Positions 1 through 64,000 of a stretch of 64,000 nt of DNA are shown here, one piece after another. Under the pieces are notes generated by a model. It saw nothing but the letters and a program-made list of their open reading frames with translations, was not told the DNA's origin and did no database searches. Source of the DNA: Terramyces sp. JEL0728 (lineage: Eukaryota; Chytridiomycota; Chytridiomycetes; Rhizophydiales; Terramycetaceae); assembly GCA_027603945.1 (NCBI GenBank), contig JADIIU010000036.1, forward strand, positions 1 through 64,000, written 5' to 3'. How positions within the stretch are numbered: the stretch's first letter is position 1; every line of letters starts with the position of its first letter. The position numbers and the translations under genes were made by a program.

Positions 1-53
1 AGAGCGTAGGTCTCATAATCCTAAGGTCGTGAGTTCGAATCTCACAGGGAGCA
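1..53 (+). tRNA. tRNA-Met (CAT), 3' part; 5' half lies outside the window
   Basis: The first 53 bases fit the D-stem end, anticodon arm, T arm and 3' acceptor strand of an elongator-type tRNA-Met. The anticodon loop reads CTCATAA, giving anticodon CAT. The T arm is GTGAG-TTCGAAT-CTCAC and the acceptor strand AGGGAGC is followed by discriminator A. A run of six T follows directly. The 5' acceptor strand and D loop start before position 1, so elongator versus initiator identity is inferred from arm composition only. Confidence 0.85.
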
Positions 54-59
54 TTTTTT
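54..59 (+). terminator. Pol III terminator of the tRNA
   Basis: Six T residues follow the tRNA discriminator base, which is the standard RNA polymerase III stop signal. Confidence 0.75.
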
Positions 60-144
60 GTTTACAAAGGGTTGTTCTTATGTGGTAGCTTTTTGTACGA
101 TTAATGTCGTGGACAACTTTGCCAGAATCTATGACCAAACTAAT

Positions 145-1503
145 TTATTGGGAAGAAATATTCATGGCATCTTGGAGCAACTTCACCACTTTGGCATGCT
201 TGTGTTTCTGTGCATGCCTGACCGCATAGTTATTATTTGCAGCGGGAGTACACCTGCCATCCTTCAAAAGCAGTTCCACCAAACCATAGTGGCCCTTTTC
301 ACTAGAAATCCTAATGGCATAATTTGAACCGCAACAAGGGTTGATCCTTGAATCTTTTAGAAACATCGAAACAACACTAGTATGGCCTGCTTTGCATGCT
401 AATCTAAACGGCTCACTATTATTTACAGCGGGGTTGATCAATGGATTTTGCAAGAGTAATGCGACGACCTTATCGTATCCATTATGGCTTGCCTTTTTAA
501 TCGCATAATTGTCTAAACCACTCGGATCCACCCTTGTATCGTTTAACAGCACCTTGGCTGTCTCTAAGTGTCCGTATTCGCAGGCAAACCGAATTGGTTC
601 ATTATGCATTACTCGTGGATCACAGTGCGGTAACAGCAGTTGTACTATTTCATGATGACCATATTCTGCAGCCTTTCGCAAACCTTCATTTTTCAACACG
701 GTGGGATTTACCCGGCCATCCTGCAACAACAACTGCACTACTTCTAAATGGCCTTGATGGCACGCTTGTCGGAACGCATCGTTCCTAAAGCATGTAGGAT
801 CTACATTGCGGTCCAGTAGATACTGTACTATTTCTAAATGGCCAAAAAAACATGCTCTTCGAATTGAGATACTGCTATTTAACGTCAGGTCTAGTCCGTG
901 CTGAACGAATACCTGCAGAATCTCTAAATTTCCACTTGATATAGCCGTCAAATACCCTTCAGATGGAGAAATATCCTGCAACATTCTGCAAACCAGATTG
1001 ATATTTCCTTGCTCAATCGCTTTATGAAATACATTCAAATAAAGGGATTTTGAAGCAATTCCGAATTCAAGGTAATATTCGCAAAATAGTAATAGCATCT
1101 CCAGTGATTGAGTCTGCTGGAGGTACTGGAATAATGGTTTCAATTCTTGCTCGGATATTAAATGTATAGATATCCTGGCTTGGTGCAGGTGTCCTTGCTT
1201 TACAATATATTCGAAATTTTGTGCAGCGGAACTTGGATCGAGCATCATGAACTCTGATGGATCTTTAGCCTTTAGCTGTGTTTCTTTGTAACCGAGAAAA
1301 GATAGCGTTGGGATCCGCTTCAGAGTGTTATTAAATGCAAATCTGACATTATGATATTCGTGAAGGTTCAGGTATTTTGAAATGATGAATAATTCTACCT
1401 GTAACTGATTCAACATTTGCTTTTGAAAAATTTCAAGCTTTAAAGTCCATGTGGATGACTTGCACTGGCTAACCAATAGAATTGTTCCGGTGCAAGATAG
1501 CAT
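145..1503 (-). CDS. Ankyrin-repeat protein with F-box-like N-terminus
   Basis: Single-exon protein of 452 aa. The C-terminal two thirds (about residues 175-445) is a run of roughly eight ankyrin repeats spaced 30-33 residues, with the recurring pattern A-x-x-x-G-H-x-x-V-V-x-L-L-L (for example GHLEVVQLLLQDGRVNP). Residues about 34-65 (LQVELFIISKYLNLHEY) resemble an F-box-like helix set, which would suggest a substrate adaptor, but this part is weak. Ankyrin arrays bind proteins; no partner can be read from the sequence. It is divergent with the oxygenase gene at 1553, with only 49 bp between the two ATGs, so they must share a tiny promoter. It lies outside the 25-kb duplication. No intron is needed. 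Confidence 0.85.
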   Translation of the reverse strand: MLSCTGTILLVSQCKSSTWTLKLEIFQKQMLNQLQVELFIISKYLNLHEYHNVRFAFNNTLKRIPTLSFLGYKETQLKAKDPSEFMMLDPSSAAQNFEYIVKQGHLHQARISIHLISEQELKPLFQYLQQTQSLEMLLLFCEYYLEFGIASKSLYLNVFHKAIEQGNINLVCRMLQDISPSEGYLTAISSGNLEILQVFVQHGLDLTLNSSISIRRACFFGHLEIVQYLLDRNVDPTCFRNDAFRQACHQGHLEVVQLLLQDGRVNPTVLKNEGLRKAAEYGHHEIVQLLLPHCDPRVMHNEPIRFACEYGHLETAKVLLNDTRVDPSGLDNYAIKKASHNGYDKVVALLLQNPLINPAVNNSEPFRLACKAGHTSVVSMFLKDSRINPCCGSNYAIRISSEKGHYGLVELLLKDGRCTPAANNNYAVRHAQKHKHAKVVKLLQDAMNISSQ

Positions 1504-1552: not shown

Positions 1553-2610
1553 ATGCTCACAACATTTGACTTGCAGAGATTAAAAGAAAAGAAGGATCTC
1601 AATGAATTACGAGAAGCGCTAAAGGATATCGGTAATAATGATTAATTTCAGGGTTCATTTACATCAGAAACCACAATGTCCCATCCTCACTAATTGGCCA
1701 ATACTTTGCATTCGTACAATCTCCCTCATCCTAGTCCAAAGAGTTCTTTTCGAAATCAACAGAAGAGAAACAAAAGTATAAATATATCCCCAGGACGAAT
1801 GCCGGATGGCTTCATGTCGGAAGTGAAAAGATTAATCAGAAATCTGGCAATACCGAAATCAAGGAAGCGCTAAACATCAGAAAGGATCGAGTTGATAGTG
1901 CGGATAGCGAAATTATTGATAAACTCATCAAGGAATGCCATCGAGTTTGTATGGAATTACTGCGGGCATACGCGGCTTGTTTGGAGATTGATTCAAGTTC
2001 TGGAGGCGATCTATATTTCTCAAATAGGCACAGGTATGATAAGGTGTCTGGAGATGTTTTGCGGTCTCTGTTCTATCCAGCTTGTAATGAACAGGACAGC
2101 CAAACTATTCGAGCTGACGGGTAATTCAATTTAATGTCTGGCATTCGGATTTCGGATCGTTGACGTTGTTGTTTTTGGAAAAGTCAGACCCAGGGGGTTT
2201 GGAGATTGTACAGGCGGGAACCAAAGATACTTTTATCCCTGTTGGCCAACAAGATGATTGTATAATAGTAAATACAGGCGACTTGATGGAGTACTGGACA
2301 GGTTCGTATTTCAGGTATTCCACTGTGTAACAGCAGGTCTACCATCCATCGCGTCACTATCCCAAAAAATCGATCCATACCTAGATATTCCATTGCATAT
2401 TTTTGCCATGCCGAAGACTCTACTGCGTTGGATAAAGTCACAAGCCAAATATTAAACGAGAATATTTCGGTTATTGAAAGGTCCTCAGAGTCATTTGAGG
2501 ATCGGTCTGCTACAAAAGTGTATGGTAAACCCAGAACAGCGGCAGAGCATTTAGAAATGCGTTTGAAGCATATACACAGTCATGAGTCTCCAAAGACCCA
2601 TCCGCAATAA
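1553..2610 (+). CDS. 2-oxoglutarate/Fe(II)-dependent oxygenase, isopenicillin-N-synthase-like (copy 1, complete)
   Basis: Five exons give 325 aa after removing introns 1632-1651, 1714-1734, 2121-2140 and 2315-2333 (20, 21, 20, 19 nt). The N-terminal DIOX_N pattern is visible (LREALKDIGFIYIRNHNVP). The catalytic domain carries the iron ligands H and D in RADGHSDFGSLTLL, the distal H in STIHRV, and the 2-oxoglutarate-binding R-x-S in NRSIPRYSIAYF. Known members oxidise small molecules; the substrate cannot be predicted. The third intron ends in TG rather than AG, yet it is the only removal that restores the conserved GHSDF motif. Its equivalent in copy 2 is one base longer, as expected for an intron. 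The GNAT gene starts 27 bp after the stop on the same strand. The duplication begins at codon 13 of this gene. Confidence 0.85.
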
Positions 2611-6847: not shown

Positions 6848-9800
6848 CCGTGTGCTACTTGCCTAATGCGACTCCGGCAATCGGGCCTCCCCTTTCATGC
6901 TCAATAGCTTTTCCTTTGGTGTCCATCCAAAACAGCAAAGAAATCGAGACTCGCAAGATTTCAACAAAAAACATCACCGGAAATATGATCATCGCAAGCT
7001 TTTATCTGCAGTTTACATACCGGTTTCAACAGGAAAACAAAATATTGCCGGGTTCAAAATACAGCCAGATTACCATTAATTGTACTGGAAATGGCAATGT
7101 ATCCAATCGTCAAGGTGAAATGACATCAGTAAACAGGAGCTGACTTTGGCCGACAATCGCTTGCTAGCCGGCGGATATCGGAACATAGTTGGCAGATTCG
7201 CCAGTGCATTACCGGACATGTACCAAAACACTCTGTTATTTGGACGGTATAATCTACAATTCAATCTGAAACTCAAAAATTTCTCCGAAACAGAAATCAA
7301 TATCACGTGAGACCCGGACTGTTCTTGGGTCAAGCGAGCACTTTCCATTGATTTTAGAATGTCTACCTGTTACTATTCTAATTTTACAGGAATAGCGCTA
7401 GACACAGAACCCAGATGTTCTTTAGGATATTACTGCCCGTTCATAACACCAAATAACCCAAATTCTATACCAGTTTTCTGCATACCTTCACCAGAATGTC
7501 AGTTTCTTAGACTGCAAGGTTTAGGCTGCACTGACGGATATCGCGGAGCACAGGGATTGTTTGAACCAACAGTTTGCACCAGGGGAAACTACTGTCCCAC
7601 ACCAAATGAAATTTACCCGTGCCCGGCAAAGCATTACTGTCCAACAGGCACATATCAACCAAGACAGTGTGATTTCTTTTCGGTTTGCCCGGAAGGAACT
7701 ACCAGACAATTGTCGTTGAATGGAGTAGTTGCGTGTTTATTGTTGGATTTATTATTAGTTGGCTTGATAATAAGACGAAGATCAATGGAAAAGAAGAGAA
7801 CCTTTGTAGATAGTTTCAAGACAGCGACAAAAGAAAAACAAAAAGTCAACCTCAAATTAGCAGACACATTTAAAAAGTCAATGAACGGAAAACAATTTCA
7901 AATGCATTTTAAATTCAAAAATTTGGGGTATGATTTACCAGATGGGAGAAGATTACTGCAGAATGTTTCTGGAAAGATTGAAAGTGGAAAAATGACTGCC
8001 ATAATGGGACAGAGCGGAGCTGGGAAATCAACTTTTATGAATTTACTCTGCGGAAAACTTTCAAAGACTTTTGGAAACCTTTGGATTAACGGCAAGGAAG
8101 TTCCCTTGGGCAAATTCAAAAAGATTTATGGGTTTGTTCCCCAAGATGATATCATGTACCGCGAATTGACTGTTCGGGAAAATATTTTGCATTCAGCTCG
8201 AATTCGGTCGCCATCTTCTTGGACTAATACGGAAATTGAAGCCCATGTAGATGCGGTATTGGATACCTTAAAGTAATTGTAAATTAACGATAGTTTGACA
8301 GATGTTGCCCACCAAATTATTGGAGATGAAAATGAGAGAGGTGTATCTGGTGGCCAGCGCAAAAGGGTAAATATTGGAATGGAAATTGCATCTACGCCAT
8401 TGTGCTTATGCTTGGACGAGCCAACTTCTGGGTAATGCTTTACTAATGTTAGATTGGATTCCACAGCTGCACTAGAAGTCACTGAAATGTTGGGGAGTAT
8501 TGCAAAGATTGGAATGACTATTGTTGCTGTGATTCATCAACCTAGACCGGAAATCTTTAGAAGATTCGATAACGTAATGATGATTGTTCCTGGAGGAAGA
8601 GTTGCATACTTTGGACCAACAAACCAAGCAAAGAGGTATTTTGAAAGCATCGGATATATTGTAATATTTGGCTAAATTAGTTCCCTGCAGATTCCAACGA
8701 AGCTGATGTTTTGATGGACATTTTATGTGGGAGAGGAGTGCACACATCGAATGGGTATACTTCGGAAGAACTTGCTGCACACTGGACGAGCGAATATGGC
8801 AGTGAAAAGAAAGCTGCATTGGAAAAAGATTATCCATCCTTCAACAATCCCGAGATTGCCCAACCAGATGAAAAGACAAGCCAAGAGGACTTTAACTCTT
8901 CAGAAACTGTAGTCACTGAAAACACGGTTGACGAGGCTTTCCACGACAACTCTACGGCGCTGGTAAACGAAAGAGGGGTGAACTTGATCCGTCAAATTTG
9001 GTATTGTCACAATCTTAGTATATTACAGCAATACCGTTCCCTATCGACTATAGCGTTAGAAATATTTGTTGGTGCAGGAGCCGGCAGTTTGATGGGAGGT
9101 GCCGTCAGCTCGATTTCTGAAATGTACGCTGGCATGTTTATTAAACCATACACACTGCTATCCACTAGTCCATTCTATTGGCCGGTACCTCAGTTTGGAT
9201 TGTTAACTGGATTAGCGGTTGCACTAAGTGCTGCACCTTCTGGAGTAAGGATCTTTTCGGAAGAAAGACCAATTTACTGGAGATACACTTCGTCAGGACA
9301 TTCCGCAATTGCCTATTTCATCGCAAGTAAAGTATTTACATTAGGGCAAGAATTTAGCTAGTTTGTACCGCATGGTCTACTCTTCCCTCCATTTTGCTTC
9401 AGTGTTATATTTCTTTGCAAAGCCAATGATTCCATTTTGGGCCCAGTTTACAATGATCCTCTTAATGTACTTTGGCGTCTATGGATTGTCTATTTTTGTA
9501 TCAACAATTGTAAAAAGAGAAAACGCTACCCTGTTAGCAGTCGTTGTAGCGCTATTCTGTGCTGTGTTTTGTGGATATGGGCCAACTATCACACAAGCGA
9601 AATCCTGGGGCTTGTACTTTTTATGGGCAATTCAGTTCAACATGTGGGGATGCGAAGCGCAATGTAAGCTTATCGCTAACAGTAGTTTCCGAAACGCTGA
9701 AGGTTTATGAAAACGTATATGAAAACCAGTTTGCGATTGATGGGTTTGGATATACGCTTGACCGCACTTTATTTGATTTTTTGATGATGGTCGTCATCGG

Positions 9801-9864
9801 ATTGGTTTGGAGAGTAATGGGATATATCACTTTGGTCAGTTTGCATAAAAAGAAACAGAGATAA
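6823..9864 (+). CDS. ABCG-type half transporter with cysteine-rich ectodomain (copy 1; 5' part disrupted or unresolved)
   Basis: From ATG 7359, six exons give 801 aa after removing introns 8273-8293, 8432-8452, 8661-8680, 9332-9350 and 9664-9682. The order is a Cys-rich ectodomain ([19 protein letters not shown]), one TM helix, the nucleotide-binding domain, and an ABC2-type membrane domain. The NBD has Walker [10 protein letters not shown], signature [12 protein letters not shown], Walker [11 protein letters not shown] and H-loop VIHQP. ABCG proteins export lipids or small hydrophobic compounds. Upstream, 6823-7358 also looks coding ([40 protein letters not shown]). It is interrupted by an in-frame TGA at 7308-7310 and a frame change near 7114-7136, and no signal peptide is seen. 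The 5' part may therefore be decayed, spliced non-canonically, or unused. The 6823 start is a limit, not a call. Confidence 0.75.
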
Positions 9865-10719: not shown

Positions 10720-11427
10720 TTATTGAAATAGCACAAGCAACTTTTCCACAAACTTTGTGCCTACAAGCGAGCTCAGGACTTTTTTCTTTTCCTCCACAGA
10801 CTTTATCAGAGAATTTTGCGAGTCTGGCAAATTGGCTTCTTGTTGAAGGTACACGGCAAACAACTCGATGCACTTGTGACTAATGTTATCTCTGATTTAC
10901 TTTACGCTTTCAGATTTCCAGGCTGTTAGTGTAGAACAAATCAACTCCAGTCCTCCATTATTTTCAAATATCCTTTTGTTTTCCACAGAATCAACCAGTA
11001 CTGCCTGTAGCGTTTCAAGAACATTTACCAGCACTTGCTGATCTACGGTAGCAACAAACGACAGCAGGATATTCATCCGTTGATTTAACGCAACCAGTTT
11101 CTTTGAAGGATAATGTAATAGTGCCATTCCTTGGATTAGATTCAAGCTGGATATGACATCCTGAGACAAGCCTTTAATCAACGGCGATTTTGGCTGCTTT
11201 ATTATTTCAAACAGGAATCTTTGAATATCGCAATTTCGTGACGTTTGAGAAATCAAGAACACTTCTTGCTCTTCAATCGCTAGCTGCACTATTATTGCTT
11301 TGAGACTATGCAGCCCTAGGGTCCTGTTTTCATCCTTTATGCAGCTATCAATCCCCAAATTTATATTCGACTTTATTTTCTCTATTCTTGTCCATTCCGC
11401 AATTGAGCTGCTGTGTGTCGACAACAT
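10720..11427 (-). CDS. Cdc14-like component of the septation initiation network (SIN) (copy 1)
   Basis: Two exons, 228 aa, after removal of the 21-nt intron at 10880-10900. The helical, armadillo-like sequence (ALLHYPSKKLVALNQRMNIL; LLSFVATVDQQVLVNVLETL; IFENNGGLELICSTL) matches the fungal Cdc14 family of the SIN, the partner of the Sid1 kinase, which is unrelated to the Cdc14 phosphatase. In fission yeast this complex triggers septum formation. The C-terminal exon ends SSLVGTKFVEKLLVLFQ. The ATG lies 26 bp after the Cdc16 stop on the same strand. The assignment rests on remembered family pattern; an alternative is a generic armadillo protein. Confidence 0.75.
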
Positions 11428-11453: not shown

Positions 11454-13585
11454 TTACTCTGATGAATATCCATCGTCCAAATCCATGTCGATATCCATGT
11501 CTGGAGTCTCAGTGATGCCAAAAATGTTTACTTCTGGCTCTTCTGGTATTGAAAGATCATCGGAATACGACGGCTCGAATGGATTACTGATTCGAGACCT
11601 CAGTTTTCTGGGCAGAGTTTTTTGTTCTGGCTGAAAATTCAGGAGCCCTCTTCGAGGCCCAGTACCTGGAGGCGAAACATTGACCCCCTTCTTCGTTCGA
11701 GGGGATTTTCGTGTTCTGGGTGGTGACGAGTCCACAAATGGATCGGATTTCGAAGAGATGTTGTATTCAAAGAGGATTTCATCTGGGTTTGATAGTATGT
11801 CGGAATCGTCCAAGTTTTCAATGTCCATTTCGTCGTCTTTTGCCTTTTGCTTTAATTGCTCGACATCAATGGCCCAAATACTGTCTGGGAGTATGGACAG
11901 CGGCTTTTCAGCGTCATGGACAATTTCGTTTATAATTTCATCCAAAATATCCTGGCAATATTTGCTGCTTGTGTTTATAGACAATGCCTATGTTAACCGA
12001 ACGCACCTTTGAAATCCACTCAACAGCCTCTTGCAGGTTACTTTCAAAATAGGCTACCAGTCCGAGACCAATATAGGCAGACTCTAATGCTGTAGTTTCA
12101 CATGTGACCAGCAGGAAATTGCGTCTTGCCTCTTCATAATTACTAATCTAAACAACAAATTACCCTAATTTGCGATGAGCATGAGCAAGATTGCAATAGG
12201 TAGCCGACCATTGTTTTGTTGATACTTTTGTACGCTCCAATATTTCACACACCATTGTAAAATACTTTATGGCGCTGGTATATCTACTTAAAATACAATT
12301 ACTGCTCATTTGCGTATTCTAAAACCCCCATTTCATTCAGTAATAGCGGGTCAGATTGACACTTTTCAAAAGCCAAGTTGTAAAAATCTTGAGCAAGAGC
12401 ATAGTTTTCCAATTGGACGTGTTCCATCCCAATATACAATAGAGGCAAATGAACTCTATCGTCAGGTTCGCTTACCCTAACAGCACTTTGCTAGCACTCG
12501 AGTAAGTAGAAATTGCAGAATCGTACTCGCCTTCCAAGGAAAATGAATGGCCGAACGCAATCCAGCCTGGACCGAAATGTGGATTCATCTGTACAGTTTT
12601 ACTGAAATACCTCCTTGCTTCAATGAATTTCCCAATGTGATAATAATAAACACCAACACCAAACCAAGTAACACAGCTTTTTGGAAACAGATCAACTAGC
12701 TCATGTACAAGCACAAACAAAACATTAATCTTGGATATCTGCGACAAACAAATAATATAAGGAACCAGTAAATCCACATTGTACTTGTTGGGCTCCAGCG
12801 CTCTATGGTTATTGAAACATACTCTTCCAAAATATCATATGCGGGTTTAAAATCATAGTTTGCCATATAAACTTCAGCTTTTGATAACGACGCCAGTATG
12901 CATTTTGATAATCCAGCTTTGCGTATCGTCTCGATTGCATCGCCGAATATCTCTTTTTTGCAATACTTGGACAACTTTGAAATATATAACGATTGGATGA
13001 TATCTGCTTCTGTTCCGGTATATTTATCCAGTGGCAAATCATGAATTATCTGTTCCCCTTCTACGGTTGAAATCAGGTAACTGTCGAGCAACGAGTCGAA
13101 TGCCTAGTTGAATCAAAATGTACTTGGTAGCAGTGCGGATCAATGTTCAATGCTTTGACAAAACACTGTTTTGCGAGTTCTTTTGAAGCTTTATTTTGAA
13201 GCGCAGCTCCTTTAATCTGCCATAATAACGAATCAACTGATATCTCTGTCATTTGCAGCAATCCATCAAAATCTGAAGAGACTGGTGATTCTAATTCCTC
13301 CAATATTTCCTCCCATTTTTCCAATTTCGACAGCAATTGACATTTCAGCAAGCTTTTCCTTTTCGATTTCGGTATCCGCTTTGTCAATTGCAACCCTTCC
13401 AACCAGTTGCTATTGTGGTATTGTATCACTGCTAAACTGTAAATATCCAATGGATCATCTCTGGTTAACAATTTATACCTAGGATTATTCATATTCTTAT
13501 CTGCAATACAGATCAATTTTTCTCCCCAGAATAATGCAGTTGGAAAAGACAGACTGTTTACAGCTTCATCCCTCCATCTCCGCAT
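11454..13585 (-). CDS. CDC16: Anaphase-promoting complex TPR subunit Cdc16/APC6 (copy 1)
   Basis: Seven exons, 670 aa. Introns are at 13104-13123, 12803-12822, 12456-12475, 12284-12302, 12143-12163 and 11988-12006 (19-21 nt). The start MRRWRDEAVNSLSFPTALFW matches the N-terminus of Cdc16, where the first TPR reads alike. TPR units follow, including CVTWFGVGVYYYHIGKFIEA, NPHFGPGWIAFGHSFSLEGE, LPLLYIGMEHVQLENYALAQ and WSATYCNLAHAHRKLGNYEEA. The tail after about residue 500 is acidic and rich in S/T-P sites (SSPPRTRKSP), as in other Cdc16 proteins, where it is phosphorylated. The product scaffolds the ubiquitin ligase that drives mitotic exit. An in-frame stop lies just upstream of the ATG. Confidence 0.9.
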
Positions 13586-27778: not shown

Positions 27779-27808
27779 ATGGCAAAACAGTTTTTTCATT
27801 TTTAATTA

Positions 27809-36607: not shown

Positions 36608-36633
36608 TACGCGAAAAAAGTTTAAATATTATA

Positions 36634-43440: not shown

Positions 43441-43871
43441 TTTCGGAAACTTTTTTGAGATTCCTTTCAGTTGGTAATTCTAATACCATTGTGAATTTTC
43501 ATTATGCACCTATCCAGGTATCGCAAAGCTTAACTATCTGGTGTTGAATGTAACTATGACGATATTAATGTTTCGGCTGCCTTTATTAATTAATTTATTC
43601 TACGAGGATGAGAGACAAATTGGTAATTTCAAAGACCACCGATAAACTTGTAAAGAATAGCTAGGGAACGCACAATTAGGATTGATCAGAATCTTTAGAT
43701 CTTTGGGCAAGTCGGATTCCTGAAATATAATTCCTGAATATAATTCCCGCCATCAAACAACCACCGCTTCATCGCCCAATAATTATCTCGGTAGATTATC
43801 TGGAGGTAATTTTAAGAGATGGCCGCAAGAGATTTTCCATCACTTCTGACTCGAAACTGAAAATTTTCTAA
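43441..43871. other. Divergent promoter region, malic enzyme / HIS4 (copy 2)
   Basis: As 18353-18778, with a short local duplication (CTGAATATAATTCC-like) near 43720-43740. No gene seen. Confidence 0.5.
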
Positions 43872-46383: not shown

Positions 46384-46385
46384 AT

Positions 46386-48058: not shown

Positions 48059-48168
48059 GATTACGCGTACAAGATTTTCCTCTTCTTAATGAATTCAAAG
48101 TAGCACAAGCAGTCTTGTCCTTTACCAACTTATATCATTGCAGAGGCTGCATAATTTTTTTCCACAAG

Positions 48169-49290: not shown

Positions 49291-49306
49291 ATTAGTGCAG
49301 AATGAT

Positions 49307-51693
49307 TTATTCGGTTGGTTTGTCCTCTGCTGGAAGATCATACAATGCAGTCTTGGAAGGTAAAGAGATGCCATACAGTGACCGTATTATGAGGGCGTTC
49401 ACGTCAGCATCAGACCAATAATTCATGTGGACTCCTAAACTCGACAGGTACGGATTCTCTAAAATTGATTCCTGCAACGTAAAGTCCAGTCGACCATGGC
49501 AATTCAATGGTTTGATTGTTTCCATTATCGCCCACTGAGCCTTCGTAGGTTCAATTTTGCTAGAAGGAATGACTCTTGCCTTTTGTTTGCTTTCAGGTTT
49601 TCCATCTGATTCTTTGACAGATTTCACAGAGACTATCGATGCACGTCTATCTGGACTGCCAGGATGCTCGATATATTCCATCTCCACTTCTGTTGGCGGT
49701 GCAGCGGCTATTTTGGACAAGCTGGACACCACAGAACCAGCTGAATTTACTAATCCAGCAAACAGCGATTTACCTTTTTCCACCATTTCACTGCCGGCTG
49801 CTTCTATCCCTTTCACAGTTTGCTAAGTCAGTACAAAACTACCGTTATTCCTCCTTTTGAATAGATAACAGGATTTGGTTTCAAATTTGACATCCGGTGC
49901 GAAAACAGCGGTTCGATTCTATGCGCTACTGGATCATAAGGATGGAATATGTTATACAATTGCCGAACAATTGGTCTAGAGTGTTTAAGAGGCGTGATTT
50001 CCGTGTTTTCGTCTATCGGTGGCTGCAGATGATATCCACCAAGCAGCAGGAACATTCCAATTGGCGAACCGACAGTGTACAAATGATCTATTTGGAAATC
50101 TAACTGCTCAGACTCCATTGAAACACTGGATTCCATCAGCCCTTCCAACCGGCCTGTTTCTAAATTGTTTGATAGCAAGTCAGAAATATCCACCTCAGAA
50201 TTTTGAGGTACAAATTGCTTTTGTTTCTCTCTGTAAGAGTACTTGGATTGTTGCGTGGTAGCAATGTCGTACGCAATTACAGAGCCTAACGAATGGCCAT
50301 AAATAGATACTGTTCCGTTAAATAATGGGTTCTTTTGCTTGTAGATACGATATACTCTATTGATTTCAGAGGAAACATGCTGGATCATTTCCTGGCGGTA
50401 TTTCGGTGTCATGTATAACAGCACATCTACTATGACGTCCGAAACCAGCATTCTTATTCCTGGAATTCCTTCGGGTAGTATATCTGGTAACGTCAATTCA
50501 ACATCTTCTTCATCCTCTGCTTCAATATTCATCCCGACATTCATCTTTTGGCGCCATTGTATTGGGATTACTTGTACTCCGCCTTTAGGAGGCATAACTT
50601 CTTTCTTGGAATGATTGGAAGCCTCAAGCGTTGCTTTTACTTGGCTTGAAGCTGAGATTAATCCAGAACGCAAAACTTCCACATCTACGTAAACACAATG
50701 TTACCTCCTGTGAAACTCATTGCTTCAATATGCTCACTCAGCTTTTGCCCTATTCCGTGTATGACAAATATCAAGTGCTCTATTTGTCTAAAATTATCCG
50801 TTGGTTCGTCGGTTTTTGGCGATATTTCATCCAGCGACAAGTTACTAACTTGTGGCGACTTGGCTTTGACTGAATCTTTTCGTTCGATGGTGATATCGGT
50901 TTGAGAGTCGTCATTTTTCCCCTTTTTAGAGGGTTTTAAAAGTTTTTCGACTTCATTCCAACCTCGAATCACTTTGGTTCCAGAGTTTTTGAGCACTGCC
51001 CGTTGAATCTTGCTTGTTATTTCGTCCGTTTGGATCCACGCTATTGAAGGCGACGTATATTGAACAAATTGGTTGATGTAAGGTCCAAAGAGTGGCCATC
51101 TCTAAGTATTAGCCTAATTTTACGGGATCTGATTTGTTGGTCGCTTGGGTTAAAGTCACTTCATTGCTGGTGTTGGCGGGCAGTGCTTGGCTGTACAATG
51201 TGCTGGGATGGTTTGCGAGCATATATCTTCTATACCCATCATCAATTTGGCGAGAAAGATTGTCCTCGCATGGTTGGTAGCTTCCTCCTGGTCCCTTTGG
51301 CTATGAATTAGCGTATTTCTTACTTCAAACCATATACCTCTCCTAATTTCGTACGTTGCTCCGTCCCAATAAACTAATATGAGTGATAATGTACCAGGAT
51401 AAAATTCCATCGTTGCAACATTCACTTCAAACAAACCATCAAATTCCTGCATTAATAATGTTGGATCCAAGCTATCAATGGATTTGGATGCGTTAAATTT
51501 GATTTCAATCCTTGCTGAATCAAACTTGCTGAATGGTAGCCAAGTAATGGGCGATTTACCCGCCTTTACCTGCAAGCTTTTGAAAGGAGTGTCGTCTCTC
51601 TTAGGCACATCGACTGCATGGAACCATCTAGGTTAATTACTCCTACATTGGTGTCGGGATGGTTTCATCAACCGCTTCTTTTTCAGTTGCCAT
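49307..51693 (-). CDS. DDHD-domain phospholipase (PA-PLA1-like) (copy 2)
   Basis: 760 aa, protein identical to 24214-26600; GHSLG nucleophile and DDHD region intact. It is the last gene of the duplicated block; its upstream region runs into the three-unit minisatellite. Confidence 0.92.
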
Positions 51694-51793
51694 CTTTGAG
51701 GAAAAATTTGGCGTTCACATAAAAAGGGATTGTGTACAACCAATGCATTGACTACTAATTAGTCACCATCGCACGTCTTTCCAATCTTTTGGA

Positions 51794-51880
51794 GATATCC
51801 ATCTTATGCGGAATAAACTCAGGATATCCATCTTATGCGGAATAAACTCAGGATATCCATCTTATGCGGAATAAACTCAG
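51794..51880. repeat. 29-bp minisatellite, three full units
   Basis: Three perfect tandem units at 51794-51822, 51823-51851 and 51852-51880, followed by unique sequence. This is the ancestral right border of the duplicated segment. Confidence 0.97.
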
Positions 51881-52045: not shown

Positions 52046-54041
<1,996 letters not shown>

Positions 54042-54786: not shown

Positions 54787-56058
54787 ATGTATCCACAACA
54801 ACGGGAATATCAGCAGCCAGCGGCTCGACCGGATTCGGCATACTATTATCAGGATGGAGGATACAATCGTCCTAGTGAATCTCGAGCCTCTCAATACTAT
54901 CAACCACCGCAGCCACAGTATTACAATCCTCCACAACCTAATTTTCAATACCAGCCTTCAAATGTTCAAAGCTCAAGACCAAATTCGTCAATGGACAATG
55001 GGAGAGTGTTTGACTACCGTCAGCCAATTCAAAGCAGACCTGCCTCAAGACCCAACTACCCACCGCCAGAAGGAGAGGATCGAGGCTATTCAAGACGTTC
55101 TAGCATTGTTAATGAAAATAGATTCCAACCAACTTATACTGAAGAGCGTCGTACCTCAATCCCTCCTCCGGAAAATAGATATTCTCAGCCAATTACTTAC
55201 CCGCCACAAGATGGAAGAGCGTCATCAGCCAGCATCGACAATAGATATCAGTCTACGACAAACTACCAGCCGCAAGCTTTTAAACAGACTGCTGCTGGGT
55301 ACGCCAATAGTCAAGCCTCAAATAGAAGCTTTTATCCAGAGAGAATGGATAATTATAACAATAGACACAGGAGACAACCTTCTTTTGAATCTCTAAGATC
55401 AAATGTATTTAATTCACCTGCCATTAGACTGCAGCATCCTCCAAGATATCCAAACGAATCAGAAGTAGGCTCCGTTAGAGCAGGATCGCGAGTAGGATAT
55501 GATGAAAATCTGGAAAACAGATCAATAAGCTCCAAAGTGGATGGCCAAAACGAACAGAATTATGAAAATGGCTCAAACTATTCAGAGGCCAGAAAGTCTG
55601 TTTATAAATCAAAAAGTGCTCTGGCGTTGTCTACCGGACAATCTTTTATCAGACGCAGCCAAGATGGAAGTTTGGATCAAAAGCCTCTACCAGGTGTAAT
55701 GCGACAACACTCCAAAAAAATGGAAGCGCTTTTGAATTCGACGTCAAGGTTAGGATTAAACGATGACTCTTCAAATGGTATGCATTAATATAACTTAGAT
55801 CTTACAAAGCCGCCATCCCCAGTGATATCCCGTCCCGCGGAATCTCCTTCAGCAAGGCGTTTCTCTTCAGCAAAGCCAATTGACTTTATAAATTCGCAGC
55901 ATTTCAGGAAAATCAAATCAATTGCCAGTGAAGTGCATTCAATATTTGCCAAAGGACAGCACCTGTACCAAGAAGATTTAGAGATTATCAAAAACAAGGT
56001 GGATATGCAAATTAAATGTATTGAATCGCTGGAACGTCTCTCCAACGAATCTCCTTGA
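54787..56058 (+). CDS. Low-complexity Pro/Gln/Tyr/Ser-rich protein with helical C-terminus
   Basis: Two exons, 416 aa, with a 21-nt intron at 55778-55798. About 330 residues are disordered, rich in Pro, Gln, Tyr, Asn, Ser and Arg (YYQPPQPQYYNPPQPNFQYQ; RPASRPNYPPPEGEDRG), with many RxxS and SP sites that suggest phosphorylation. The last about 60 residues are predicted helical (DFINSQHFRKIKSIASEVHS; YQEDLEIIKNKVDMQIKCIE), perhaps a dimerisation helix. Family not recognised. The frame is open upstream to 54688, but the ATG at 54787 fits the start of the biased composition better. Confidence 0.65.
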
Positions 56059-56093: not shown

Positions 56094-56896
56094 TTATTGA
56101 GTCTTTTTCTTGAATACAAATCTTTGTAATGCAAAATTGACAAACAAAGCAAAGTACGAAATATACATCAAAGCACCATAGACCATCCCAGATAAATCAT
56201 TGTAGCATGTTTTCCCCTGCAGCATGTAATACCAGGTATATACGCAGACATAAGTACCAACTGCCATTTGAAGTATTTGACTAACTGTGATCATGTAAGA
56301 CGGGAACCATCTTGGACATAGGCCGGCAGCTTGAAGGGAATAGTAGGTGTACATGACAGCATGAACAGAGTAGTTCATCGCGACGAAATACAGCCCTGCA
56401 GCAGCCAAATGTGAATACGCATGCCATCCATACCTATAATTAAAATAGTTTACATCATAACTGTGGCATGATGATACCAATGCAAGAAAATCAACGGCTT
56501 TTTGCGCAATACAATGAACACTGTATCAATCAACTCTGGAATCTTGCTGAGTGAAAATAGCATAACCCAGAAGCCAACAGTCCCAGAAGCCCAGGTGTCG
56601 TGAGGGTTGTCGCAAACGGTATTTTCAAATGGCATCGATCTGAAATTGCGCCAGATTTTTGGAACTGTAATGTATGCACCGGCAATACTAAATACAGCTA
56701 GAAAGGCGTTCCACAAGGCAAGAGTCCATTTGAGGTGGAAGGGTTTTCTTTGGTTCATGTATTGCTTCCCAAAGAAACAGAATGCAAGATACATGCCGAC
56801 AGCGGTGAATGGAATCTGCCAGTTGTTGTTGGTGAATTCAATCACTCCTTCTGGTCTGTAGGTTGGATATTCCAATATGCGATCGATGCCCCACAT
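56094..56896 (-). CDS. Very-long-chain fatty acid elongase, ELO family (ELOVL6-like)
   Basis: Two exons, 260 aa, with a 20-nt intron at 56434-56453. It performs the condensing step of fatty acid elongation in the ER, joining malonyl-CoA to an acyl-CoA. The catalytic box HxxHH is seen as LHWYHHATVMM (H139, H142, H143). Other ELO signatures are FWVMLFSLSKIPELIDTVFI and AMNYSVHAVMYTYYSLQAAG. About seven hydrophobic helices are spread along the chain, and a Lys-rich end (FVFKKKTQ) fits ER retention. The pattern is nearer animal ELOVL6/3 than yeast Elo1-3. An in-frame stop lies shortly upstream of the ATG. Confidence 0.93.
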
Positions 56897-57159: not shown

Positions 57160-59532
57160 ATGCCCAACAGCGACTCGTCAGTGTATGAACTATTAGGAAA
57201 TTCAGAACAGATAATCAACGTAATCTGCAGTAATATTAGGGATCTGTAAGTCTGGACTGGAGAAAATTACCAGACGATTTAAAGGATATATCCGAACCAA
57301 GGAGACACAAGAAGAAAGCTTCTAAAACTGAAAAAATAGTATACAGTGTCCCGGATACCGATGACGATTTAGTAGATATTATAGACAGTCCTGTTAATAG
57401 GGAAAGACCGCTGACTTTCAATAATTGCCATTTCCACTATGATAAAGAGCACGAAAACACTCATCAAATAGCAAGGCATCTAAAGGAAGAGATTCTGTCG
57501 AATAAGACAACTACCAAATCGTCAAAAACAGACGCACATTTGAAAAAATCAATCTCCAAACTGCTAGAGTCAAATTACGCTGTTCCAAAGCAGGGTACAG
57601 GGAGTTTAATCTAGATATCCCAGTTATAAATTCAGTTATGGAACAAATGAAAGGCGTTCGACCAAAAGCAGAAAAAGTTCATTCTCCAGCAATGTCATTA
57701 TCTGAATTTGATCCGGTTCCAAAGGAATCTATTAATTTAACACACTCTTACAATAAAGCATTCGCAAGTCCTTATAAACCGGAAGAGCCTGCAGAAGAAG
57801 TCCGGGAAAACACTAATGAGATGAAGAGGGAATCTTCACTGGACATACTCAACGATGAAATTTTGGAGGGGTATTCTAGAAACATTTCAGAAGCTACACC
57901 GCCGTTTAATCTCAAAGAATCAATTTATGACTCTGTTAGGTAAATATTTGTTGATGAATAGCTCCAGCAAAAAGAAGAATTCTCAAACAAAGTCAGAAAA
58001 GGAAATATACGTCAAAGTACACAAGGAGCTGTGCGATCTGTCGGAAGATTTGAAAGCTAGGAACGAAAAGCTGCAGAAGGAAACAAAAGAGTTGAACAAG
58101 CTAAAGGACTCAATTAGAATCAGCCAAGCAACCTTGGAGCAACGAGAAAAGAGTCTTAATCGAGATTTAGATTTGATGGTTAATACTGCACTTAAACAAA
58201 AAGAGAAATCATTCAGATCAGACACGGAAAAGATAATTACAAAATACGAGGACGCAATTGAGCAATTAAACAAGGAAAACAAGCGTCTGCAGAATGCTCT
58301 CAAAGATATGGTAAATACTAACCGTTCGCTAAGAGATCAAGTATTTAGATTTAACCCAGAATAAAAGGTGTCTTGCAGAAATGGAAGAAAAGGATTTGAA
58401 GTTGGATGAATTATCGTCCAATTTAAAGTTATCCAAGGAACGAAATGAAAGACTGAAAACACACGTCAGAGTTGGCAGCTCCAGCGTTGCACAACCTTCC
58501 GAGAATAATGAAAAGGATATGTTTGCGCAAATGAAGAAACTGATTTCAAAAAGCAATCCGAAATATGAAGGGATGCAGTCCAATGTTCAATCTGAAGATA
58601 TATCTAGACACCGCCAAGAATACCACAGTAGGAATGCTGTAAATCAGCCAGACATTGCGCTAAATCCAAACGTATTGTCGCTGGTTGAATATTTGCTCAA
58701 TTTGAGATCTACGAAATCAAAAATTGCTGGGGAAAAGAAACTTCAAAATATGTTTATTGATGCAATCTTGGGGTCTTTTGAGGCAGTCGAGTCAGCTTGC
58801 AGAATATCTCCAGATACTCCATCGCAAAGGAGAAACATGCTTCAACATTTAGAGGAGCTATATTTAGAGTTGATATATGATGGCATAAAAACAAACCTGC
58901 CTGCTGCTGAAGTAATATTTACTAATTTAGCAGCATAATATTGCCGCCTTGGTTTATTCCTCTTTGACAGTATTGCAAACTAGAAATATGAATATCGAGG
59001 ATCAAAAATCTGAAAGAGCAATCATTTACACATATCTGATTGTCCTAGATAGTGTGACGCAGTTTGAAGTTGTGGAAGCAATGCTAGATGGACTACTTGT
59101 CCACTTGTCATCATCAATCAAATCACGAAGCATGGTGCTTGAAGTTGGTGGATTGGATACAATCTTTGAAATTTTAACCAGGACTCCATCCAGAGATTCC
59201 ATAGTCATGCTAGTGTCTTCCGTACTATTAACTTTAATATCCGAAGGTAATTTTCATTAACAAAGATTCATTTTACAGCAAATGTGCATCTAATCAAATT
59301 CTCGATATTTTTGCAAGTACATTAAAAACCGGGCCTATTAAAACCATAGAAAATATGATTGTAATAATCCAACGACTATCAAAAAGGTAAGCGTTTTTAA
59401 TCCAGTGAACATGTTTCGCAAATCCCCAAGAGCGTTGTACTAATGGACACCTTGCACTTTTTACAAAGAGAGAGTGTGTCAGATTTTGTGAATTTAAATC
59501 TCAAGTCTATATTTAACAATATAACTTTGTAA
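57160..59532 (+). CDS. CCDC138-like coiled-coil protein (ciliary/centriolar-satellite type)
   Basis: Eight exons, 744 aa. Introns are at 57220-57239, 57595-57614, 57939-57960, 58341-58359, 58912-58930, 59247-59265 and 59387-59405 (19-22 nt). A disordered N-terminal third precedes a coiled coil (KVHKELCDLSEDLKARNEKL; LEQREKSLNRDLDLMVNTAL). The C-terminal helical domain (VEYLLNLRSTKSKIAGEKKL; LYLELIYDGIK; YLIVLDSVTQFEVVEAML) follows the layout of metazoan CCDC138, including the final FVNLNLKSIFNNI block. CCDC138 acts at centriolar satellites in cilium formation. Presence here suggests a flagellated cell stage. The assignment rests on remembered similarity along the C-terminal half. Confidence 0.75.
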
Positions 59533-59927: not shown

Positions 59928-62609
59928 TTACGTATTTCTTGCAGCGCAGTAGCTGTGCGCAAGAGTTCCATCCGGAAACACAGTGAATATGATGCTGCTC
60001 AGTCTCTTCAAACACAGCCTACACATACTTTGTTCATCGACGTTATATGCTACATTTTGGGTTTCAAGCAAGCCATCTTTTACCTTTATCAGCAATACTT
60101 TTAACAGACTCTCTATCATCAACTCGCGATATTTAGTGGTAACGACAGATTTGGTGTTATTGATTAGAAACGATTGTATCTCGGATAACTTTACGTTTGA
60201 TTCCAGTGTGTCGATAATCTTGTTTAGAAAAAATTACTTTGCAGGCATCCAATCGATATCCATGGTTGTTCAAATATTTTAGGGTTTCTTGATCATTCTT
60301 ATTTTCTGATTGAATATATAGTCTGTACAGATATGTGAAAAGTGTTTTGCTAAGAGAGCGATGATGTTTGTAATGCCTTATACAGTATTCTTCAGCCAGC
60401 TTGAAATCTTGAATGTCGTAAATGAAAATTTCCAATGCTTCTTCAAATCTGTCGAGTCTGCTCAAAATATGGGTGCGTTCAATTAAAAATTGCTTCTTTG
60501 GCAGTGAATCAAGCACCTCACTTTCGTTGTAGTGTGTGTTTTGATGGATAAAGGTTTCGAATTTATCGCGGGCTGCATTAGAGAAAAAGTACCCAGCTGA
60601 TCTTTTGGCGATTCTATGCACATTCTCATGTATTTTAGTAGTAACTTGGTATTGATATTTACATCATCGTCGAAATGGCTGTTTACTAGATTCTCCAGGT
60701 ATTCCAAACCATACTCTGGCGAAATACTGTCTAGAAACTCGAATATCTTCAGCTTGTTCACAGTGGTTACCATATGTTAGCAAATCTTACTGGTTGGTAA
60801 TTCTCTGTGAATATTTTTATGCCCATAGTAGGATTGCTTTCTAATGGGTACTTGGCAAATTCAAGTACAGTATCAACGTGCTTGTTCAAATCTAATTGCT
60901 GCAAATACGAAATCATTTTAACATAGTCGTCATTTTCTGTAACCCTGATATTAGCCCAACGGTACATTTTCATAAAGGTCAATGCTTTCTGGTGCTGTCC
61001 TTTCGCTTTATAGAAATCAATCAATTCATTATTCTTCTGCTGTAAGTAAAAATAACCTTGAATCGGATCAGTAATGCAACAGTGCGTTCATAATTGCAAG
61101 AGTTTTCTACTCTCAGCAACGAGCCCAATAATGAACTATTCGTTGTTAAATATACCTGTAGCAACGCAGTTTCAGCAAACTCTAGCAAAAATTTACAGTC
61201 GGAAAGCGAATCTTCAATAGTACTATCAAAATATGGGTTCTTGTGGATTGAATTTTTTGCTTTTTGGTTCATTTGTGCAGCCAGTTCGTTTCTATATGTA
61301 ATCAACTTCACTCGTTCCTTGGATAGATATAGACCCAATTCTTGCAATGCTTCTTTTTCAGATTGGAAATCCTGGACATTGTCCATGATATCAGGATACA
61401 ACCCAACAACATCCACTGGAGAGGCATTTAGTTTTTCAAGAACAGAAATAGCTTCACTATATTTCTTTTGGACGTTAAACAGATACTGTGCATAAACACC
61501 TCGGACTTTGATGACATTGGATTGCTATGTTAGCGATAATCTCCCTTTTCTTGGGCACTAGCGAAATCCAGTTCATTAATGAAAGCTTCTGCGTCTTCAA
61601 ATCGATTGTTGGCCAACAATTCATCAATCTGTTCATCAAAATCCAATGGGAGTAGTCTCCATACATTCTTGGAGCTCGCAATGTAAATCAGTTCTCCAAT
61701 ATTCATGATAGTTCCTTGTCCGATGGCAAATTGCTGTAAAATAGACCCAGTTTTCAAACTTCTAATCTCTATTATGGAGTCAATCAAAGCTATTGTATAA
61801 TAATCATCTACAGTAATGTGTGATGGTAATGCGGTCCATTGGAATAAAAGAACGGCTTTCTTTGTTTGCATATTCACTTTGTAACAGTTCAAATCCTTTG
61901 TACAGTACACATAGTTTTCATTCGGATCGACTGATATTTCGTTTGTAATAGGGTCAAATTTAGGTGTGGAAGGCACATGGGCAGCCATATAATGGGATTT
62001 ACTGATTGGATTTGAAAATGCTGCTTCGTTTACACTGAACAGCTCATGGTGCTTCCGTTCCGCAGTGTCAACCAGGTATATCCCTCGTCTTGTCGCAGCT
62101 ATAACTTTGGTTTCTTCAATGAATTGAAATGATGTCGGTGTATATGGAAGTGCGATCAACTCGTTTTCAATTGCCTCGCATGGTGAAATGGAGTAAATTA
62201 TCAACCCTCTTTTTACTCCAACTGCGAGAGTATCGGATCTGTTGCTGTTTTGGAACAGAGATCTTTCAACACAAGTGACTCCTTTAATGCGGGGTAATAA
62301 TACGAGATTTAATGTTGGCTGAGAGTAGTCACATATGGAAACGAGTCCTTCTGAAAGGATTGCGAGTGATCTGGATTTCTCTAGGATCAAGATTTTTGTC
62401 ATTTTACTGATCACTTGCTTGTATACTTGCGAGAGCGTGATTGTGAATGGATCCTCATCTATATTGTATTCTAATATCGATCCTTCTTCTGTCCCGATAA
62501 ACATTTTATGTCCCAAGTGATCAACACATGAAATTGAAAGTGGAAATCCTTCAATTAGAATTTGAGGATGGACGACATTGAATGGCACTAGAATTAAGGG
62601 TAGCGTACT
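59928..62609 (-). CDS. VPS39: VPS39/Vam6, HOPS/CORVET tethering subunit
   Basis: Seven exons, 854 aa. Introns: 62588-62608 (21), 61525-61544 (20, GG-AG), 61040-61056 (17), 60771-60790 (20, GT-TG), 60573-60592 (20) and 60219-60237 (19). The order is an N-terminal CNH/beta-propeller (PLSISCVDHLGHKMFIGTEE), helical clathrin-repeat region (SPVDVVGLYPDIM; MGIKIFTENYQPV; DRFEEALEIFIYDIQDFKLAEEYC), and a C-terminal zinc-binding module (CRLCLKRL then FPDGTLAHSYC). In fungi VPS39 binds the Rab Ypt7 and tethers vacuolar membranes. The start codon is split: A at 62609 and TG at 62587-62586, joined when the first intron is removed. Without that splice no ATG occurs in frame until residue 29. Two introns have non-standard ends yet restore conserved blocks. 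Confidence 0.88.
62588..62608 (-). other. Intron inside the VPS39 start codon
   Basis: 21 nt, GTACGCTACCC at its 5' end and TTAATTCTAG at its 3' end. It separates A from TG of the initiator codon. The genomic triplet at the exon start reads GTG, which is not a normal start. Confidence 0.7.
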
Positions 62610-62998
62610 TGAGATTTGAAAATTTAGACTTTTTGCAAACTTTGAAATTCAAAATCGAGCATTAGTACTGACAAGGCATACTCTGTAAATAAGGTCCTGG
62701 ACTAGCAAGTTTTCAAAATTTCTTGGGAGAATAGGAATTCTTTTAGGTTGTTTCTTGAGCGCTAATGTTTATTAACACCGGTGTTGCCATTTTGAATTGG
62801 TACAATATCCCAAGAAACGTTATTGGTATTCTAGGCCGAACATCCGACAACTCTGGAGAATACTGGAGTATCCGGCCCGCTACTAGTGTAGGATGACGGT
62901 GTCATGGGATTGATAAGGATCAGTACCTTGTGTGTTCATACAAAACGGCTGTTACAGCGGATAAGAATAAAGTCAGCTCCAAAACTAATAAAATTTAT
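62610..62998. other. Intergenic between VPS39 and HMG-box gene 3
   Basis: 5' leader and promoter of VPS39 and the 3' region of HMG-box gene 3 (both on the minus strand). No open frame is supported. Confidence 0.5.
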
Positions 62999-63696
62999 TT
63001 ACATTTCGCTTTTAACTGTAGGGTCTAATATAAAGGAATCAAAGTAATTATATCCACTATCGATGGGAGGAAGTCTCTCTTTTGGGCTTGGTGGCAAAGT
63101 AAAAGTTGGCGAAATTGGATAGGGTAAAGATTTCTTTGGGCTTGAGGGAGGAATGACTAGTTCCAAAGGCTGAATCGTCTGCATCATTGGAGCAAACGGC
63201 GGAAAAGTGCTTTGAGGCACAATCGTGAAATGAGGAGCATTGTTGTAAGCGTTGTTGAATGAATACGGATCCAAATTGGTAAACTGGAGGATATCATACG
63301 AAATAGATGGGGGCCGTGCTTCTGTTTTTACATTAGATTCAACTTTAATTTCAAAGCTGGCGCTAGATACTACTGAATTTTGACGTTTTCTCGCCTTCTT
63401 CTTTGTTGATTTTGTAGCTTTGACTGGCTTGACGTTCTTGTGCGGATTCCAGTCAAATTCAGGATACAGCTGTTTATGTAGATTGTGCGCTTCGATGGAT
63501 ATATTCCTATAATATTCTTTGACTTTGCTGGACTCTTTGGCCCACAGACTTGAACAGATTCGACTAACTTCGTGGCTATTGCTCGTTTGATACTCCTTCT
63601 CAATCTTTAATTTCATATCTTTTCTATCTGTCTGTTAGACTCGTTCTTACAGTAGAAGAAGGAATTCATTGGTTTCTTTACTTTTTCATGGGCCAT
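62999..63696 (-). CDS. MATA_HMG-type HMG-box protein 3
   Basis: Two exons, 224 aa. The 23-nt intron at 63619-63641 lies in the first helix of the HMG box and restores KKPMNSFFYYRKDMKLKIEK. The box continues NSHEVSRICSSLWAKESSKV and ends PEFDWNPHKN. A Lys-rich stretch (KATKSTKKKARKRQ) is a likely nuclear localisation signal. The tail is Pro/Ser-rich (LVIPPSSPKKSLPYPISP). Its intron position differs from that of HMG-box gene 2, and gene 1 has none, so the three are old paralogues. Single copy, outside the 25-kb duplication. Confidence 0.9.
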
Positions 63697-64000
63697 TCTA
63701 TCTAGATATGAGCTGACAGGTTGCTATTTATACGATTGGAGGGGTGATCTGCAACCTTTTTGGGCAGGCGCCATTCCATATCTCCAATTGAGGTTGCACA
63801 AATGATAACATGAAACAAAGCTTGCTAGCAAATCAGCAACTTCAGCCTGGATGGCCGTGCCCATCGTTCCAAAAAAGCAGTTTGCTGATAGCCGGACATT
63901 CTCTCTGAGCAGTTTGAGCTGGCACTAAAGATTTATTCCTTTTCTATATTTTTTTCATTTTTCTCTTATTTTTTCGAGGGGAGTGTGACTCTTGGACACC
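63697..64000. other. Upstream region of HMG-box gene 3
   Basis: Contains the promoter at 63725-63739. No other gene is seen up to the window end, which is T-rich with TTTTTTC-type tracts near 63945-63975. Confidence 0.5.
63725..63739 (-). promoter_or_regulatory. CCAAT-TATA core promoter of HMG-box gene 3
   Basis: On the minus strand CCAAT (63739-63735) is followed within a few bases by TATAAATA (63732-63725), about 29 bp before the ATG. The arrangement mirrors that of HMG-box gene 2. Confidence 0.55.

Follow-up and report, generated by a model that had tools for sequence, protein, structure and literature searches.

Contig 36 of the assembly of the chytrid Terramyces sp. JEL0728 (15,016,339 bases in 231 contigs) carries genes that are broken up by segments of about 20 nucleotides (nt), which we read as ultrashort spliceosomal introns. 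We analyzed bases 1-64000 of this contig, here called the window. The organism is one that we take to be a free-living saprobe. An earlier note on the same DNA had described the introns without mentioning that the window also contains a direct tandem duplication of 25.2 kilobases (kb), with copies at 1589-26755 and 26756-51848 that are 98.76% identical. The start of the second copy falls within exon 1 of the 2OG oxygenase gene. The genes and their introns are as follows, with intron lengths in nt in parentheses.

1553..2610, plus strand: 2OG-Fe(II) oxygenase of 325 amino acids (aa), Pfam DIOX_N and 2OG-FeII_Oxy once spliced; introns 1632-1651 (20), 1714-1734 (21), 2121-2140 (20, GT-TG) and 2315-2333 (19).
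7785..9864, plus strand: ABCG-type transporter in two adjoining models, Pfam ABC_tran and ABC2_membrane_7 (first model); introns 8273-8293 (21), 8432-8452 (21), 8661-8680 (20) and 9664-9685 (22); a GC-AG intron at 9323-9344 may join both models.
10720..11427, minus strand: CDC14 (SIN component), Pfam CDC14; intron 10880-10900 (21).
11454..13688, minus strand: CDC16 (APC6), 698 aa, homologs P0121-P0127; introns 13603-13621 (19), 13104-13123 (20), 12803-12822 (20), 12456-12475 (20), 12284-12302 (19), 12143-12163 (21) and 11988-12006 (19).
13461..13478, minus strand: candidate 18-nt intron within CDC16, in a stretch without counterpart in relatives.
14431..15180, plus strand: HMG-box-like gene, family assigned by eye; intron 14587-14607 (21).
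16456..18352, minus strand: malic enzyme, 599 aa; introns 18239-18257 (19), 17905-17924 (20), 17474-17493 (20), 16991-17009 (19) and 16863-16881 (19).
18779..21290, plus strand: HIS4 (PRA-CH, PRA-PH and histidinol dehydrogenase), 816 aa, all three Pfam domains found; introns 19527-19546 (20), 20608-20627 (20) and 21041-21061 (21).
21293..22965, minus strand: coiled-coil-like gene, by coding score only; introns 22622-22640 (19), 22351-22370 (20), 22216-22236 (21), 21818-21837 (20), 21525-21543 (19) and 21400-21419 (20).
23076..24197, plus strand: DUF4097 protein, by Pfam; introns 23328-23348 (21), 23679-23698 (20) and 24011-24029 (19).
24214..26600, minus strand: DDHD lipase, 753 aa, Pfam DDHD (1-258 of 258), WWE_2 and DUF7131; introns 26535-26553 (19), 26281-26301 (21), 26208-26230 (23), 26009-26030 (22), 25592-25611 (20) and 24730-24749 (20).
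26756..51848, plus strand: second duplication copy, with paralogous introns, 36 in automatic models.
52331..54041, plus strand: protein kinase with KA1, Pfam Pkinase (52-263) and KA1; the kinase domain is N-terminally incomplete in this model, and the missing part is matched from 52136; introns 52553-52573 (21), 52684-52703 (20) and 52889-52908 (20).
54787..56058, plus strand: low-complexity protein, by coding score only; intron 55778-55798 (21).
56094..56896, minus strand: ELO fatty-acid elongase, Pfam ELO (3-240 of 242); intron 56434-56453 (20).
57160..59532, plus strand: coiled-coil-like gene, by coding score only; introns 57220-57239 (20), 57595-57614 (20), 57940-57961 (22), 58341-58359 (19), 58912-58930 (19), 59247-59265 (19) and 59387-59405 (19).
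59928..62504, minus strand: VPS39, 818 aa as read with an uncertain start, Pfam CNH, Vps39_1 (2-108 of 108) and zf-Vps39_C; introns 61525-61544 (20, GG-AG), 61037-61056 (20), 60945-60965 (21), 60771-60790 (20, GT-TG), 60573-60592 (20) and 60219-60237 (19).

With one duplication copy counted, 17 of the 27 genes in the final automatic window models carry introns, 54 in all (15 are 19 nt long, 22 are 20, 13 are 21, 3 are 22, and 1 is 23). Adding the other copy raises the totals to 43 genes, 27 of them with introns, and 90 introns. The earlier note had claimed 60 introns in 14 genes by hand, and the machine count reproduced nearly the same length distribution, except that its single 17-nt intron was not recovered in the final models. 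Manual reading of the window genes added three 20-nt segments with variant ends (2121-2140, 60771-60790, and 61525-61544) and the 19-nt GT-AG intron at 2315-2333.

These introns were called with a gene finder that learned codon usage from long open frames and applied a GT...AG rule, treating all intron lengths from 10 to 300 nt as equally likely. Our genome sample comprised the window and 20 stretches of 10 kb, one each from 20 other contigs (264 kb). In a second pass, the signals were learned and the length was free between 12 and 60 nt. The second duplication copy was left out of this pass and of the one-copy window count and was included in the flat-prior, dinucleotide-control, and variant-end tallies; introns were deduplicated by sequence in the intron listings. 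The flat-prior GT-AG run on the sample gave 322 introns with a sole peak at 19 to 22 nt (37, 68, 15, and 6 introns of 19, 20, 21, and 22 nt, respectively), the remainder being scattered. The second pass gave 157 genes, 115 of them with introns, and 369 introns, or 2.04 per kb of coding sequence. Of those introns, 323 measured 17 to 24 nt (2 of 17, 2 of 18, 92 of 19, 139 of 20, 54 of 21, 26 of 22, 5 of 23, and 3 of 24 nt), while 46 were scattered outside this range (5 at 13 to 16 nt and 41 at 26 to 60 nt). The 311 introns of 19 to 22 nt came from stretches of 21 contigs, and each of the 20 sampled stretches supplied at least one intron of this size in the deduplicated listing of the control run. 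Nearly all introns thus lie within a few nt of one another and below about 25 nt, as in ultrashort-intron genomes of the heterotrich ciliate, nucleomorph, and mikrocytid type.

The peak was specific to GT-AG. With a 60-nt ceiling, a flat length prior, and unlearned signals, 169 of 270 GT-AG introns fell at 17 to 23 nt, compared to 30 to 58 of 201 to 270 introns for each of nine control dinucleotide pairs. Of the ten pairs tried, only GT-AG had a peak at 19 to 22 nt. Because the control pairs lack it, the peak is a property of this genome's GT-AG segments and not of the reader's eye. The AT-AG control had a bump at 16 to 18 nt (47 of 270), as would be expected were the inner AT of a GTAAT... 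start used in the same frame. We discarded a further control in which any dinucleotide was allowed at equal cost; its free boundaries slide, only 1 of its 121 introns was GT-AG, and it had no power.

All of these introns share one layout, namely a 5' splice site (A)AG/GTAA, a short AT-rich spacer, a YTAAY branch site, 2 to 3 bases, and then AG. A CTAAY-type branch site is typical of fungal introns. Across the 311 introns of 19 to 22 nt, the consensus was GTA / YTAAY / (T/C)AG, with A at position +3 in 290 and at +4 in 172, G as the last exon base in 150, and T or C before the AG in 275. In the 323 introns of 17 to 24 nt, the branch A was at position 14 in 152 and at 15 in 132 (284 of 323), never at 13, and at least 14 nt from the 5' end in 321. 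Its distance to the last G was 5 nt in 157 and 6 nt in 134 (291 of 323). Intron length is therefore the sum of two nearly fixed distances, and it varies mainly because the branch A lies 14 to 16 nt off the 5' end and 4 to 7 nt off the 3' end. There is no room for a polypyrimidine tract between branch and AG.

Variant ends were rare. In the tally of both duplication copies, GC-AG (9) and GT-TG (8) were the commonest beside 410 GT-AG introns. Four of the seven distinct GC-AG candidates read GCAAG, as if the weaker donor needed a G at +5. The 20-nt GT-TG and GG-AG introns had the same branch geometry as GT-AG introns. We also found an in-frame stop in 43 of the 54 introns of 21 nt, compared to 144 of the 257 introns of 19, 20, or 22 nt (p 0.0012), a hint only, as stop-free 21-nt introns may be seen less easily by the finder.

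In silico excision of these segments restored proteins, as the earlier note had claimed. The malic enzyme spliced in silico (599 aa) was 100% identical over its full length to the public protein HDV01_004695 of Terramyces sp. JEL0728. Since the public and the spliced protein are the same, the public annotation must already remove all five introns. Combined with the 19- to 22-nt introns on all 20 of the other contigs sampled, this identity bears out the proposal that the size range belongs to a fungal nuclear genome. For scoring, we used profiles that contained no Terramyces or Boothiomyces sequences (P0003-P0062 and P0125-P0165 were used; P0001-P0002 and P0121-P0124 were left out). Malic enzyme scored 866 bits spliced versus 263 bits for the best unspliced frame, and CDC16 scored 504 bits spliced versus 168 bits for the best unspliced open reading frame. 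Each predicted intron was also compared with 5 to 25 frame-keeping GT-AG candidates with a donor within 45 nt, the predicted intron and retention included. The predicted intron ranked first in 10 of the 12 malic enzyme and CDC16 cases; the two exceptions were the first introns of the two genes, where a competing candidate led by 0.9 and 0.3 bits.

Pfam domains were likewise regained after splicing. A scan of eight window proteins, one of them intronless and CDC16 entered as its first 550 of 698 aa, returned the domains of HIS4, DDHD lipase, kinase, ELO, DUF4097, and others. On other contigs, spliced models gave domains of Exo84, an acyl-CoA dehydrogenase (seven introns), a mitochondrial carrier, an EF-hand protein, and COG6; these five were picked for a conserved look from 11 of the 18 genes on other contigs that have at least four introns. 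The reading frames of VPS39 and the 2OG oxygenase close only if 20-nt GT-TG or GG-AG segments are removed as well. A natural comparison came from contigs 199 and 111, which hold two copies of one gene with 98.9% identity across the compared stretch. A shared intron measures 21 nt in one copy (L030:1513-1533) and 20 nt in the other (L031:1513-1532), a one-base difference, and the spliced proteins are identical while the unspliced frames diverge.

Ultrashort introns damage gene models in practice. The public Terramyces CDC16 protein (P0121) is fused to the adjacent CDC14 and is missing an exon of about 40 aa that is flanked by two short introns. Boothiomyces macroporosus and Globomyces largely keep the missing segment; it is absent also from two other Boothiomyces models. 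In three Boothiomyces CDC16 models, the missing stretch starts within about 1 residue of Terramyces intron 1.

We then considered the splicing machinery. The U2 small nuclear RNA (snRNA) was found at 140 bits with its branch-binding GTAGTA intact, and the branch YTAAY is complementary to this GTAGTA. Genes for U1-C, SF1, and U2AF65 are present, each itself split by 19- to 22-nt introns. SF1 has its helix-hairpin and KH domains, with SF1-HH scoring 66 and 43 bits exon by exon and 115 bits in the full-length spliced protein. The U2AF65 gene (L034:1454-2854, contig 2) encodes an intact RRM2, and by eye the U2AF35-binding segment and the C-terminal, SF1-binding end are kept. A search for RED_N gave no match, but its controls gave no signal either, and it tells nothing.

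RRM1 of U2AF65 was the exception. Its RNP1 reads KEHCHVEF in Terramyces and Boothiomyces, with both aromatics lost, whereas the aromatic pair is kept in 118 of the 120 homologs compared (the best 120 of 1519). As the H, C, and H codons sit in the exon just 5' of an intron, the exact splice position does not affect this reading. The Boothiomyces U2AF65, annotated independently, agrees on RNP1. A metagenome U2AF65 (P0178) has KNSAIVEF at RNP1, another form of the loss. In the U2AF65 tree, Terramyces and Boothiomyces fell together (100/100) and the metagenome protein grouped with Kappamyces (95/91). Because Kappamyces keeps the aromatics, the loss may be twofold. Globomyces keeps them as well.

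Taken together, the lengths, signals, restored proteins, and splicing factors make it very probable that these segments are genuine U2-type (major) spliceosomal introns of the Terramyces nuclear genome, shrunk to near a geometric minimum, with 19 nt as a plausible steric limit. U12-type introns carry RTATCCTT at the 5' splice site and TTCCTTAAC at the branch site; the consensus GTAATT / YTAAY of our 311 introns does not have that signature.

Several observations weigh against this reading. A G at +5 was present in only 64 of the 311 introns, with no preference for it, unlike in most eukaryotes; pairing of the 5' splice site with U1 and U6 would consequently be weak. In the two 17-nt introns, the branch A was at positions 11 and 12, in conflict with a strict minimum of 14. 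Look-alike introns within exons were not significantly depleted, as 10 were observed, synonymous shuffles gave 14.9 +/- 3.75, and the number was 10 or lower in 12 of the 100 shuffles. The anatomy of the 311 second-pass introns describes short introns rather than proving them, as its signals were learned from an earlier pass on the same sequence. Finally, genome searches that scored only some candidates, had no chytrid control, and used an assembly that may lack the genes found no U1 snRNA match at E<=1, a best U4 snRNA match of 20.3 bits (Rfam cut-off 46), and a best U6 snRNA match of 27.4 bits (Rfam cut-off 44). Two U6 matches were rejected since they were located over a short intron and the downstream coding exon. 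A U6 pattern search gave one match bearing a mismatch, in surroundings that were not U6-like by eye, and a further pattern gave none. Because U1-C is present, we read U1, U4, and U6 as missing from the assembly or diverged rather than lost.

The earlier note held that such introns demand an adapted spliceosome, a claim to which the factors covered here give a partial answer. Among the factors it named, U2 was intact, SF1 was conventional, U1 was not found, and U2AF65, otherwise conventional in appearance as is U1-C, had the degenerate RRM1 RNP1. In human U2AF65, the aromatics of RRM1 RNP1 stack on uracil. The RRM2 RNP1 residue F304 of the human protein does the same (PMC7408900, PMC4786784). 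With only 2 to 3 nt between branch site and AG, the stacking residues of RRM1 would be expected to be lost. In the mechanism that we propose, SF1 and U2 would recognize the branch site. The contribution of U2AF would come chiefly from protein contacts, from RRM2, and from the AG, and its RRM1 would accordingly have lost the aromatics that stack on pyrimidines. We give an even chance to the broader proposal that the whole intron complement was independently driven to the minimum of an otherwise conventional spliceosome, with the 3' splice site read without a polypyrimidine tract and U2AF65 co-evolving by losing RRM1 stacking while keeping RRM2 and, by eye, its SF1- and U2AF35-binding parts.

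The best-surviving alternative accepts the introns but sees them as an old, widespread trait of Rhizophydiales that did not require the spliceosome to adapt, and takes the U2AF65 change for coincidental drift. The exon gap of the three Boothiomyces CDC16 models fits this view, as though a short intron at that point had misled the annotation, and the retained aromatics of Globomyces may fit it as well. However, RNP1 aromatics were lost only in Terramyces with Boothiomyces and in one metagenome protein (2 of the 120 homologs compared), a pattern that better fits lineages with special 3' splice sites than general drift. We consider this alternative possible, though doubtful.

A hidden class of ordinary long introns beside the short ones appears unlikely. 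The 41 calls of 26 to 60 nt among the 369 could be taken for such a class, and the roughly 40 aa missing from the public CDC16 protein look like the trace of a single annotated long intron. Yet these calls are flat at about one per length, with no longer class among them, in line with the earlier note's statement that no longer intron was convincing. The segment missing from CDC16 is kept in good part by B. macroporosus and Globomyces, even if two other Boothiomyces models also lack it, and the domain tests required no long intron.

Removal by another mechanism, such as HAC1- or tRNA-type cleavage, ribosome hopping, or RNA editing, is very improbable: although 19 nt is below the working distances of well-studied spliceosomes, with human splicing requiring the branch site to lie some 50 nt from the 5' splice site (PMC6692369), the GT-AG ends, a YTAAY that matches the genome's own U2, and the retained U1-C, SF1, and U2AF65 argue for a spliceosome, and still shorter spliceosomal introns are described in heterotrich ciliates and mikrocytids (PMC10245619). 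We find it just as hard to credit that sequencing or assembly errors causing frameshifts, or gene decay, produced the segments. Many of them do break the frame, VPS39 needs two with noncanonical ends, and the tandem duplication may be an assembly product. The segments, however, agree in length, in their GT...AG ends, and in a branch motif that hardly varies, and for the tested genes the spliced-protein identity and the profile tests already contradict the error reading.

The duplication itself also argues against errors, as the segments recur in both copies. Between the copies, the 36 introns (726 nt) had 3 substitutions and 0 indels. The remaining DNA outside the models (6105 nt), a class that takes in part of the 2OG gene clipped by the automatic model, had 77 and 34, respectively. 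This comparison treated the GT-TG intron at 2121 as noncoding; its length differs by 1 nt between the copies (20 versus 21 nt). First and second codon positions differed by only 0.15-0.23%, and 32 of 2497 four-fold sites differed. The contrasts are borderline: for introns against the other DNA, Fisher p was 0.043 (substitutions) and 0.045 (indels), and against four-fold sites p was 0.064 (substitutions). Paired kinase matches on contigs 3, 18, 26, and 42 suggest similar repeats; these and the window duplication could be real duplications or haplotypes joined by the assembler. Elsewhere in the window, 3167-6862 holds four open frames in a row that by eye encode similar membrane proteins, with no predicted introns. 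Positions 1-52 resemble by eye the 3' part of a tRNA gene truncated by the contig start, where ARAGORN reports none.

If our reading is correct, ultrashort introns arose independently in fungi, with the early splicing factors tested (U2 snRNA, U1-C, SF1, and U2AF65) present, and the question of minimum intron size could be studied beside well-understood fungal spliceosomes. The near-fixed distances of 14-15 and 5-6 nt offer a direct test of structural models of branching, and the RRM1 change is a candidate protein adaptation. The finding suggests that fungal splicing machinery of ordinary appearance is able to operate close to its physical minimum. As far as the searched literature goes, such introns are new to fungi: no report of introns of about 20 nt in a fungus was among the literature matches listed on fungal or chytrid intron size. 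They would be a known kind of intron with a variant geometry and a candidate U2AF65 adaptation.

Like ordinary fungal introns, those of Terramyces are GT-AG, and like those of chytrids they are numerous, at about 2 per kb; two Chytridiomycota species average 3.93 per kb in a survey that covered 644 fungal genomes and terms a mean of 63 base pairs (Cryptococcus) relatively short (PMC8476143). Elsewhere, ultrashort introns measure 15-16 nt in heterotrich ciliates, 16-17 nt in mikrocytids, and 18-21 nt in the chlorarachniophyte nucleomorph (PMC10245619). In Paramecium, very short introns of 3n length are rich in in-frame stops, which our 21-nt introns resemble subject to the finder bias, but they spread over 25-45 nt, whereas the Terramyces peak is sharp at 19-22 nt (PMC5014332). 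The introns of Stentor (15-16 nt) are uniform and GT-AG with about 5 nt from the branch A to the 3' splice site, and the commonest begins GTAATT... without a G at +5, all as in Terramyces (PMC9505925). They differ in that the branch A is at 10-11, with no strong motif around it (PMC9505925), while in Terramyces it is at 14-15 in a strong YTAAY. Mikrocytids share the narrow size and conserved sequence, but M. mackini has 224 predicted introns and a spliceosome of 17-19 proteins, in contrast to the intron density and the retained U1-C, SF1, and U2AF65 of Terramyces (PMC10245619). The introns of the Bigelowiella nucleomorph have nearly the same lengths as those of Terramyces and are likewise narrow in range and numerous (PMC10245619). 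That genome is the relict nucleus of an endosymbiont, whereas the Terramyces introns lie in the main nucleus of a fungus.

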